Shown: positions 44,298 through 61,114 of the stretch, piece after piece | How positions within the stretch are numbered: the stretch's first letter is position 1 | Layout of the letters: every line of letters begins with the position of its first letter | NCBI GenBank assembly: GCA_020073165.1 | Contig: JAIQFP010000003.1 | Coordinates: forward strand, 1 to 64,000 | Direction: 5' to 3' | DNA: 64,000 nucleotides | From: Terriglobia bacterium | GTDB taxonomy: Bacteria; Acidobacteriota; Terriglobia; Terriglobales; Acidobacteriaceae | Translations under genes and position numbers: made by a program | Notes under the pieces: generated by a model | Database searches by the model: none | What the model was told of the DNA's origin: nothing | The model's input: only the letters and a program-made list of their open reading frames with translations

Positions 44298-44780
44298 CTA
44301 CGCCCGTCCCTTTTTCGCCGCCGCCATCGCTTTCACCCCCGCCACTTCCCACGGACGCTTCGGGCGCTCCGTCGTCGGCTTGTCGCGGTCCACAATGCGG
44401 TCGTATTGGTACGACTCGCTCACCGTCCCCAGCGATTCGTTGTACAGGCTGGGCAGTCCCAGGCCTTCCTTCAGCTCTTCGGTGAATTGCTGCAGCGCCT
44501 TCAAGTGGTCCGCGGTCGCAGGGACCTCGGTCTTGGCTGTCTTCAGGAACTGCTGGTATCCCCGGTTCACCAGCTTGGAGATCTCGCTGCCGATCAGGTA
44601 GCCCGGATAGGCAAAGATCTTCACTCCATCCTCGGCTGTCTTCTGTATGGCTGCCGAGCAGGTGTACTTCTTCAGGAACACACGCCCTTGGGTCCCCGGC
44701 GCTTCGAGCACATCAAAGCCGTGCTCCCGCAACCAGTTCAACGCTTCGTCATAATTCCGTTGTTCTACCTTGGTGGTCAT
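44298..44780 (-). CDS. Conserved hypothetical protein, 160 aa
   Basis: No family recognised. It is soluble, with mixed alpha/beta pattern: [80 protein letters not shown] and a basic tail ([11 protein letters not shown]). No signal or membrane segment. Codon use matches its neighbours, so it is a real gene. It diverges from the cysteine gene cluster. Confidence 0.7.
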
Positions 44781-44877
44781 CTGGTCGTATGAAGCCCCTT
44801 CGTCTTCCCGATAAGGTTAGATGCGGATTCCGGGAAAAGGCATTTTGTGCAACCCCGCGCATCCAACCATCATCCCT

Positions 44878-44883
44878 TATAAT
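44878..44883 (+). promoter_or_regulatory. Probable -10 box for the cysteine cluster
   Basis: TATAAT lies about 75 nt before the cysM start, in a gap that is otherwise gene-free. No good -35 box is visible at standard spacing, so an activator may be needed. The transcript would have a 5' leader of roughly 65 nt; no riboswitch fold was recognised in it. Confidence 0.35.
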
Positions 44884-44956
44884 CTAAAGAGCAGTCCCTG
44901 AAACCTGATTTCGCCGTTACCCCACATTACGATGGTCACGGCAATCTCTCAAGCTT

Positions 44957-45967
44957 ATGGAACCAGCCTCTCGCAGATTCGCGCAAGTGTCAGATTCGTC
45001 AGTACATGCCCCGGCCAGAGGCATTGCGCACCGGATCGCGAATGAGGTCAGCCCGCTCGGCCAGCATACTCTCGATCGCATCGGCAATACTCCCCTGCTG
45101 CGTCTGCCTCGTGTCGTGGCCAAACATCCCGGCGTTGAACTGCTCGGCAAGGCAGAGTGGTTCAATCCCGGAGGCTCGGTCAAGGACCGTGCCGCGGCCA
45201 ACATCATCGCGGCCGCGCGGCGTAGCGGACAACTCCAGCCCGGGAAAATCCTGCTCGATTCCACCAGCGGCAATACCGGCATTGCCTATGCCATGATCGG
45301 TGCTGCCCAGGGGATCCCGGTCACCTTGTGCATGCCGGAAAACGTTTCTGTCGAGCGCAAGCGCATTCTGCAAGCCTACGGCGCGAACATTATTTATACC
45401 GACCCCGCCGACGGCTCCGATGGCGCCATTCGCATGGCGCGCGAACTCGCCGCCAAGCATCCCGAGCTGTACTTTTACGCCGACCAGTATTCCAACGACG
45501 CCAACTGGCGGGCCCACTACCATGGCACGGCCAACGAAATCTGGCAACAAACCGAAGGACGTATCACCCATTTCGTGTCCATGTTGGGCACCAGCGGGAC
45601 CTTTGTCGGCAACACCCGGCGCCTGAAAGAATTGAACCCGCACATCCGCTGCATCTCGCTGCAGCCCGATGCCCCGTTCCACGGCATCGAAGGCGCCAAA
45701 CATATGCCCAGCGCCATCGTGCCGAAAATCTACGATGCTTCCCTGGCCGACGCGAATCTCGAGATCTCGACCGAAGCATCCTACGCCATGGTCAAGCGCC
45801 TGGCCCGCGAAGAAGGCTTGCTGGTGGGAATCTCCGCCGCCGCAGCGGTGGTGGGCTGCCTGCAAATCGCCCAGCAACTGAAGAAGAACGAGCGCGCCGT
45901 GCTCGTCACCATCCTGTGCGACTCCGGCGACAAGTATTTGAGCGAGCGATTCTGGCAGGAGGAGTAA
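44957..45967 (+). CDS. cysM: CysM-type cysteine synthase (CysO-thiocarboxylate dependent, by context)
   Basis: 336 aa, PLP enzyme of the cysteine synthase fold. The PLP lysine is K76 in NPGGSVKDRAA; the substrate loop is STSGNTGIAYA; the phosphate-binding loop is LGTSGTFVG. An extra ~35 residues precede the standard start (LDRIGNTPLLRLP). In Mycobacterium a cysM paired with cysO uses O-phosphoserine and the thiocarboxylated carrier instead of free sulfide. Here the JAMM protease, cysO and an E1/rhodanese follow in order, so the same chemistry is inferred. The start at 44957 has no strong ribosome site. Confidence 0.9.
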   Translation: MEPASRRFAQVSDSSVHAPARGIAHRIANEVSPLGQHTLDRIGNTPLLRLPRVVAKHPGVELLGKAEWFNPGGSVKDRAAANIIAAARRSGQLQPGKILLDSTSGNTGIAYAMIGAAQGIPVTLCMPENVSVERKRILQAYGANIIYTDPADGSDGAIRMARELAAKHPELYFYADQYSNDANWRAHYHGTANEIWQQTEGRITHFVSMLGTSGTFVGNTRRLKELNPHIRCISLQPDAPFHGIEGAKHMPSAIVPKIYDASLADANLEISTEASYAMVKRLAREEGLLVGISAAAAVVGCLQIAQQLKKNERAVLVTILCDSGDKYLSERFWQEE

Positions 45968-45985
45968 TCGGCAATCCTGAGTTCC

Positions 45986-46420
45986 ATGCTCAAGATCTCC
46001 AAATCGGCCTACGACTTCATCCGCCGTCATGGCGAGGAAACCTACCCCCACGAATGCTGTGGTGTCCTTCTCGGCCAGATAAACGGTGAGGGGCGAGTGA
46101 TCACTTCGTCGGTGCCCTGCGGCAATACCCGCACCGACTCGCCCCGAAACCGCTACCACATCGATCCCAAGGAACTGGTACGCATCCAGCGCGAAGGACG
46201 CGATCGCAACGAAGACATTCTCGGTTTTTATCATTCTCATCCTGACCACCCGGCGCGCTGGTCGCGGACCGATCTGGCCGAGGCGCACTGGTTTGGCTGT
46301 TCGTACGTCATCACCAGCGTGGAAAAGGGCAAGGCCGTTCTCACAAATTCATTCCTGCTCGACGGAACCGGGGAAGGCGACAAGCACCTCGACGACGAAC
46401 GGATCGAGATTGCGCCCTAG
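45986..46420 (+). CDS. mec: JAMM/MPN+ metalloprotease of the Mec type
   Basis: 144 aa. The JAMM zinc motif is complete: E23 (YPHECCGVLLG) and H83-x-H85 ... S93-x-x-D96 in HSHPDHPARWSRTD. Proteins of this type cleave after the Gly-Gly of small ubiquitin-like carriers. In the mycobacterial pathway the enzyme frees cysteine from the CysO-cysteine adduct; here it could also trim the extra Arg after GG in the adjacent carrier. It starts 18 nt after cysM. Confidence 0.9.
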   Translation: MLKISKSAYDFIRRHGEETYPHECCGVLLGQINGEGRVITSSVPCGNTRTDSPRNRYHIDPKELVRIQREGRDRNEDILGFYHSHPDHPARWSRTDLAEAHWFGCSYVITSVEKGKAVLTNSFLLDGTGEGDKHLDDERIEIAP

Positions 46421-46529
46421 CGGTGTCAGGGTTGTGGAGCATGGGCCTATCGCCCGTGAGCGCGATGAATCCCCGCGCAGACCCGGCGCATCTTTGAATT
46501 GTCGGGTCGCGGCTTAACAAAGATTTGCT

Positions 46530-46802
46530 ATGAAAATCCTTATTCCCACTCCCTTGCGCCAGTATTCCGACAAGCAGCCCGCGGTGGAGGTCAAGGCCGC
46601 CACCGTGGGTGAAGCGCTTTCTGGTTTGGTCATGCGCCACCCCGATCTGCGCCGCCACCTCTACACCGAGGAAGGGAAGCTGCGCGCCTTCGTTAACGTT
46701 TACCTGAACGACGAGGACGTGCGCTACCTGCAGAAAGAAGCCACCCAGGTGCGCGATAGTGATACCATTTCCATCGTGCCTTCCATCGCTGGAGGCCGCT
46801 GA
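46530..46802 (+). CDS. cysO: CysO/MoaD/ThiS-like ubiquitin-fold sulfur carrier, GG-Arg C-terminus
   Basis: 90 aa with the beta-grasp pattern (MKILIPTPLRQYSDKQPAVE, TVGEALSGLVMRHPDLRRHL, LRAFVNVYLNDEDVRYL) and the end TISIVPSIAGGR. Carriers must end in Gly-Gly for adenylation by an E1; the extra Arg90 would have to be removed, and the JAMM protease encoded just upstream is a candidate. The GGAGG of the Gly-Gly codons (46791-46795) also serves as a ribosome site for the Cys-rich frame that follows. MoaD for molybdopterin is an alternative, but the cysM/mec neighbours favour cysteine synthesis. Confidence 0.9.
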   Translation: MKILIPTPLRQYSDKQPAVEVKAATVGEALSGLVMRHPDLRRHLYTEEGKLRAFVNVYLNDEDVRYLQKEATQVRDSDTISIVPSIAGGR

Positions 46803-46806
46803 ACCC

Positions 46807-46887
46807 ATGATCCTGGGATGGACTAACTCCCGAATGCCTCGCTACAGCGCCTGCTGCTGTTGTTGTCCGTCCTGTTGTTGTCGCTGA
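46807..46887 (+). CDS. Cysteine-rich leader peptide, probable cysteine-responsive attenuator
   Basis: A 26-codon frame, ATG 46807 to TGA 46885-46887, whose second half (from an in-frame ATG at 46834) reads MPRYSACCCCCPSCCCR: five Cys, Pro-Ser, three Cys. Eight Cys in the last eleven sense codons is far beyond chance in a genome where Cys is rare. GGAGG lies 11 nt upstream, inside the cysO 3' end, and the start is 4 nt after the cysO stop. It ends 57 nt before the E1/rhodanese gene of the cysteine pathway. When Cys-tRNA is low, ribosomes would stall here and change downstream expression, as shown for poly-Cys leaders in mycobacteria. No clear terminator hairpin follows, so the mechanism (Rho or ribosome-site masking) is open. 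Confidence 0.75.
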   Translation: MILGWTNSRMPRYSACCCCCPSCCCR

Positions 46888-46944
46888 GTTCCGCTTTCCA
46901 ACCGGCAATCGAAAATCTGAAATTGAAAATGTTTTGAGGTCTTT

Positions 46945-48117
<1,173 letters not shown>

Positions 48118-61040: not shown

Positions 61041-61114
61041 TGGGCCGTCGACTAATGGTAGGTCAAGTGCCTTTGGAGCACTTTGTCTAGGTTCGAATCC
61101 TAGCGGCCCAGCCA
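61041..61114 (+). tRNA. trnQ: tRNA-Gln (anticodon UUG)
   Basis: Cloverleaf read by eye: acceptor TGGGCCG with CGGCCCA, D-stem GAC/GTC, anticodon stem AGTGC/GCACT around loop CTTTGGA (anticodon TTG at positions 34-36), T-stem CTAGG/CCTAG around TTCGAAT, discriminator G, encoded CCA (61112-61114). It reads glutamine codons CAA and CAG and lies between ispE and prs. Confidence 0.95.

Follow-up and report, generated by a model that had tools for sequence, protein, structure and literature searches.

The window, that is, the whole 64,000-nt stretch of Terriglobia bacterium DNA analysed here, carries on its forward strand a presumed operon in the order cysteine-synthase-like gene, JAB peptidase, CysO-like carrier, leader, MoeZ-like enzyme. 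The upstream gene is cysteine-synthase-like (cysM-like; 44957..45967, +) and is followed by genes for a JAB-domain peptidase (Mec+-like; 45986..46420, +), a ThiS-fold sulfur carrier ending in AGGR* (cysO-like; 46530..46802, +) and an E1/rhodanese protein (moeZ-like; 46945..48117, +), the last being the presumed target of the leader. All four were assigned by homology, with Pfam hits to PALP/cysteine-synthase, Prok-JAB, ThiS and ThiF+Rhodanese. The nearest NCBIfam models stay under their curated cut-offs, so cysO, mec and moeZ are used as homology names only. In mycobacteria, MoeZR sulfurates CysO, according to the available portion of PMC3227635. An Rfam scan returned one tRNA gene in the window (61041-61111, +; RF00005) and only tRNAs in the loci of 19 relatives.

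Between cysO and moeZ lies a putative poly-Cys leader ORF (46807..46887, +), which translates to MILGWTNSRMPRYSACCCCCPSCCCR* and whose Cys run is kept in relatives. As the sequence-only reading had described, it consists of 26 sense codons plus TGA, and 8 of its final 11 sense codons encode Cys: five in a row (TGC TGC TGT TGT TGT; 46852..46866, +) and three more (TGT TGT TGT; 46873..46881, +). The ORF starts 4 nt past the cysO stop (46800-46802), and its candidate ribosome site GGAGG (46791..46795, +; 5/6 match to AGGAGG) is indeed built from the Gly-Gly codons of cysO, with a spacer to the leader ATG that is on the long side (11 nt). The leader ends 57 nt before moeZ, and this spacer (46888..46944, +) contains a candidate moeZ ribosome site picked by eye (GAGG; 46936..46939, +). 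It was said to lack an obvious terminator, and our scan of positions 44700-47000 agrees: we found no terminator-like match on the + strand, and thus no intrinsic terminator of the trp type, and a weak consensus scan of the same interval gave no promoter-like match on either strand.

Dinucleotide shuffling of the window gap, repeated 300 times, never attained its Cys run, and on sequence statistics the run is not a product of chance. In the whole genome, five matches to TGYx5 fall in four separate places; the three outside the cysO-moeZ gap are enclosed by long open frames that run in a different frame or antisense. TGYx4 has 50 matches in the same genome, and all 30 loci read (overlapping matches included) overlap some long open frame, the window leader too; among these 30, only the window leader has more than four Cys together with a stop at most 11 codons from the run start. 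Across 1.69 Mb (both strands of 127 loci), a signature of at least four Cys in 10 codons followed by a stop within four codons occurred 34 times within 260 nt 5' of moeZ vs 50 times elsewhere. The motif TGYTGYNNNTGYNNNCCNNCNTGY, present in 95 of 200 genomes of the family, was discarded as a genome-wide indicator, since a reversed-pattern control was similar per genome and the motif therefore uninformative; 12 inspected matches comprised two moeZ leaders, one that led to a peroxiredoxin leader and nine that overlap other open frames. An antisense ORF of 170 aa (46693-47205) also covers the leader. An antisense gene was rejected as the cause of the run, as the frames are open for at least 100 codons in only 13, 6 and 5 of 30 relatives.

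MoeZ homologues were gathered from 61 genomes (30 loci), 80 contigs and 27 of 28 further places (all but G048), giving with the window a total of 137 loci, L001 and the window being counted as one. Removal of 10 duplicates and of 23 loci with no cysO match in the 700 nt upstream left 104, of which 14 have gaps shorter than 40 nt that are not usable. One locus removed for want of a cysO match, L051, has a Cys run of its own (CPRCCCCQ*). At a MoeZ identity of at least 84%, 55 of 58 loci have a usable gap (at least 40 nt), and 30 of these 55 contain at least four Cys in 10 stop-free codons (hereafter positives), a conservation of Cys codons across relatives such as an attenuator calls for. Most positives (25/30) reach at least five Cys in their best 10 codons, and five have only four; in 27 of the 55 gaps, at most 3 of 300 dinucleotide shuffles attained the observed Cys value. 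Below 84% identity, 3 of 35 usable gaps were positive, all of them CysO tails (L133, L134 and L135). The intra-operon position emphasized in the sequence-only reading is conserved between cysO and moeZ: 25 of the 30 positives have the leader stop 44-62 nt ahead of moeZ, the other five 75-123 nt. A quickly built MoeZ tree of 73 loci, with 24 open forks, groups 28 positives in a single 56-locus clade (SH-aLRT 96); the two outside it, L012 and L018, are both fused to CysO.

The run is absent from 25 of the 55 usable gaps, close relatives included (L036, 92% MoeZ identity), and several copies look eroded, with Cys-to-Arg changes (L008, L049, L079, L086, L089 and L091). About half of the clade is without the run or has an eroded one, which the earlier reading had not foreseen; nor had it foreseen that in some genomes the run forms a C-terminal tail of CysO. 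By eye, the run-less gaps of L036, L013, L050, L052, L080, L067 and L068 show AT-rich inverted repeats or GTCATCCCGAGC-type repeats. Two contigs labelled Thaumarchaeota (L081) and Betaproteobacteria (L111) carry a moeZ close to Acidobacteriota copies and are likely mis-binned or mislabelled.

The run occurs in two coding forms, as a separate ORF in 25 of the 30 positives and as an in-frame fusion to CysO after Gly-Gly in five. A start codon from -4 to +65 of the cysO stop is available to all 25 separate ORFs, a count made without a chance control; at some loci the candidate start is no better than TTG or GTG, and the ribosome sites are often weak. Below 84% MoeZ identity, 19 of 37 readable CysO ends have Cys after Gly-Gly, and these 37 tails hold 34 Cys in 209 residues (TGT 25, TGC 9); read in its other two frames, this DNA gives 17 Cys in 410 codons. 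At 84% identity and above, Cys follows Gly-Gly in 16 of 58 loci (43 Cys in 361 residues). A search for CysO across the phylum yielded a match in 87 of 199 genomes. Among 40 loci read from this search (29 of its 30 loci and 11 hand-picked ones), cysO and moeZ are one gene in 19, with a protein of 473-500 aa (L249, L250, L252, L255, L257, L259-L261 and L263-L273); Cys follows Gly-Gly in 14 of the remaining 21, with at least two Cys in five. Among these five are CCPLAACCCR, TDAVSPCCSCCPSL and SACCSCCPLL, which all come from the window's own family. In L278 and L282, a hairpin (ACCGTC..GACGGT) with TTTT after it, possibly a terminator, was seen by eye between cysO, which has a one-Cys tail, and moeZ; L277 and L283 have an imperfect version of it.

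QbsE-type sulfur carriers bear a C-terminal extension that is removed by a JAMM peptidase, and the tails raise the question of whether the Cys run is a CysO propeptide cut after Gly-Gly by a JAB peptidase, the separate ORFs being derived from it or reached by frameshift or readthrough. We consider this unlikely. The likeness to the QbsE type is that some CysO homologues have residues past Gly-Gly and that a JAB gene is present in the window operon; the in-frame Cys-rich tails in five positives and in more distant genomes, where Cys exceeds that of the other two frames, point the same way. In 16 of the 25 separate ORFs the leader frame is open back over the cysO stop, and five others are in frame directly 3' of it. 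Because stop readthrough would thus reach five of the nine ORFs that a frameshift would not, the propeptide explanation was slightly strengthened and that of a leader slightly lowered. Four ORFs (L045, L056, L059 and L075), however, have a leader-frame stop 3' of the cysO stop and are closed both to a frameshift at the cysO end and to readthrough. Furthermore, CysO in the window ends in AGGR* with no in-frame extension of the JAMM-processed type, and the run is a separate ORF there and at 24 other positive loci. Retention of Cys codons for a propeptide function would also be unexpected in a detached tail, and the TGT excess described below would go unexplained.

Alignment of the gap in related Acidobacteriota, which the sequence-only reading had called for, showed the Cys run kept and its flanks drifting. 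Among the 25 separate-ORF loci, pairwise identity in the run (33 nt) is 69%; it drops to 55% in the downstream flank, 53% in the upstream flank and 59% immediately ahead of moeZ. After letter shuffling, the run gave 55% and the downstream flank 50%, and segments of cysO and moeZ, taken for comparison, gave 78% and 77%; the flank identity is near shuffled levels. A stop follows within four codons of the last Cys in all 30 positives, and the pattern CCP[SAP]C recurs in the leaders. This pattern and the conservation at the coding level would suit an independent Cys-rich micropeptide that has a function of its own, e.g. metal or thiol binding, but Cys number and spacing differ widely among the copies and the stretch ahead of the run is little conserved. 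Together with the biased codon choice and the maintained place before moeZ, this makes a micropeptide improbable.

When 28 leaders (26 positives together with L038 and L055) were aligned as DNA, blind to codons, no two bases aligned with each other within the run differed in codon phase, a result helped by the picking of leaders for in-frame Cys. Mismatch rates at codon positions 1, 2 and 3 are 0.34, 0.26 and 0.40 in the run, compared with 0.60, 0.52 and 0.53 upstream of it, where 2885 cells are out of phase. An earlier count of 68, 47 and 120 at these positions, from 46 pairs with at least 6/9 identical residues, favours position 3 because of that preselection; in the unselected repeat on the 28-leader alignment, the position-3 excess is milder. 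Codon choice sets the leaders apart from moeZ: their Cys codons are TGT 123 : TGC 50 (71% TGT) vs 33 : 267 (11%) in moeZ of the same 30 loci (Fisher p 1.6e-41, overstated since the loci are related), and the TGT fraction is above that of the own moeZ in 30 of 30. Pooled codons other than TGN have the same T:C balance as moeZ. Because Pro codons also shift to the rare CCT (24/39 in leaders vs 66/732 in moeZ), the bias extends beyond Cys. A sensor that works by stalling might favour codons that are otherwise avoided, and the strong TGT preference gives a direct handle on whether the sensor codons are tuned for slow decoding. Taken together, the run is real, keeps its codon phase, lies mostly at a similar distance before moeZ and is TGT-rich where moeZ avoids TGT.

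The TGT and CCT excess yields a near-constant core, CGCTGTTGT..CCTTCCTGTTG, and with the modest size of the position-3 excess it would fit an untranslated nucleic-acid element, either an RNA-binding motif or a DNA site such as CTGTTGT. The absence of out-of-phase cells from the run (in leaders picked for in-frame Cys), the nearby stop in 30 of 30 and the lack of any pair predicted by RNAalifold all argue against such an element, which we regard as quite improbable. A relic or chance run with no present function, which would fit the half of the clade that lacks the run or has it eroded, is very improbable given that the run is conserved above its flanks in 25 loci and that the Cys-run-plus-stop signature is enriched upstream of moeZ.

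The reading we prefer, at somewhat better than an even chance, is that of a translated, cis-acting cysteine-sensing leader inside the operon. Scarce charged tRNA-Cys would slow ribosomes at the leader Cys codons, and the position of the ribosome in the cysO-moeZ gap would alter moeZ expression in cis; the stability of the upstream cysO part might be altered as well. The outcome would be sulfur-carrier charging matched to cysteine demand. Leader translation would rely on reinitiation once cysO ends, or on read-on in loci whose run is fused to cysO, with stalling presumably as the signal and moeZ going up on starvation. More tentatively, and at somewhat less than an even chance, the cysteine sensor may have shifted in evolution between CysO tail and free ORF, in which case the ribosome that ends cysO would gauge the cysteine supply and set the carrier-to-activase ratio from within the operon.

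As for the route to moeZ, the sequence-only reading had named Rho or masking of the moeZ ribosome site. While the conserved run and its place in the operon sustained the leader interpretation, masking was not borne out: folds of the 30 loci showed no consistent pairing of leader RNA with the moeZ ribosome site, and its predicted accessibility averaged 0.427 with the RNA free, 0.425 when a ribosome stalls on the first Cys codon and 0.395 when one sits at the leader stop (stall vs free p 0.45; stall vs stop p 0.011, a small effect). A conserved leader hairpin linking the run to moeZ was rejected, with zero conserved pairs predicted by RNAalifold on the 28 leaders. By eye, a short ACAA/UUGU hairpin is visible in several leader copies. 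A Rho site in the leader is not clearly indicated by base composition: the C-over-G excess is modest (C/G 1.30 in leaders vs 1.02 in coding windows, p 2e-6; values as high as those of the leaders occur in an average of 22% of coding windows) and the window leader itself unremarkable (1.25 vs 1.16). Because no terminator, promoter or masking hairpin was recognised around the window leader, Rho- or RNase-mediated polarity is left as the best fit, by elimination only.

In trp/his-type attenuators the control codons specify the amino acid made by the operon, and in mycobacterial-type attenuators the downstream ribosome site is freed from structure when a ribosome stalls. The codons of the window leader likewise correspond to the amino acid made by its operon, but the cysO-moeZ gap has no terminator/antiterminator pair, and a structure that masks the ribosome site is unsupported there. 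Canestrari et al. reportedly described polycysteine leaderless short ORFs in mycobacteria in 2020. Like these, the window has a short ORF with contiguous Cys codons 5' of a cysteine-metabolism gene. In the available portions of the publications, mycobacterial polycysteine short ORFs are cysteine-responsive attenuators (PMC13236596, PMC9094748, PMC9031893) that sense through ribosome speed at Cys codons (PMC9031893, PMC9094748). They are leaderless there, whereas the ORF in the window is internal and follows cysO, and is sometimes fused to CysO in relatives; its SD-like site inside cysO and the lack of a promoter-like match in the weak consensus scan would speak against a leaderless start.

A second comparison is the uORFC-8-2 motif of Rhodobacterales, a uORF with tandem Cys codons upstream of cysS for which ribosome-mediated attenuation is predicted (PMC8632094). 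Both place tandem Cys codons before a cysteine-related gene; as far as the available text of that source goes, however, uORFC-8-2 is a 5' leader that combines stems and a terminator with two conserved Cys codons, while the window leader has eight Cys codons, lies within an operon and has no terminator. Among the open-licence papers inspected, there was no report of a cysO-moeZ Cys leader in Acidobacteria. With Cys-codon leaders known from mycobacteria and predicted for cysS in Rhodobacterales, Acidobacteriota would add a phylum. If true, the case would represent leader control inside an operon with neither terminator nor masking hairpin, acting on the balance of carrier and activating enzyme.

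A second Cys leader of 19-26 codons (starts chosen by eye) was found upstream of a peroxiredoxin gene in 13 of 25 loci (L219-L223, L224, L225, L226, L233, L236, L238, L239 and L241), L224 being that of the window's own genome (G000:C4:50862-51509). These ORFs carry CC, CCC or CMCLCCCCCC. A TTGAC..TAT-like promoter lies at most 11 nt from the leader start in 10 of the 13, and an intrinsic-terminator-like hairpin follows the leader 3' in 10 of 13; no such hairpin was recognised after the leaders of L222, L223 and L224. Near the leader end, the stretch that pairs best is complementary to the 5' arm of the terminator in L220, L221, L233 and L239, the arrangement of a classical attenuator (without a pairing control); in L219, L222, L236, L238 and L241 the best pairing is located elsewhere. 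From its sequence, the peroxiredoxin leader looks like a classical Cys attenuator and resembles the trp/his type. Its presence raises the plausibility of Cys-codon sensing in the clade and says nothing direct about moeZ. The PBC-28-3 motif, found before AhpC-like genes, is a different-looking RNA motif in the available text of PMC8632094.

A tRNA gene lies near the peroxiredoxin gene in 9 of the 13 leader loci, tRNA-Cys in five and tRNA-Sec in four. The former, tRNA-Cys(GCA), is found in L233, L236, L238, L239 and L241, and the latter in L219, L220, L223 and L224; these nearby tRNA genes may share control by the peroxiredoxin Cys leader. In L233, the tRNA-Cys gene lies ~60 nt downstream.
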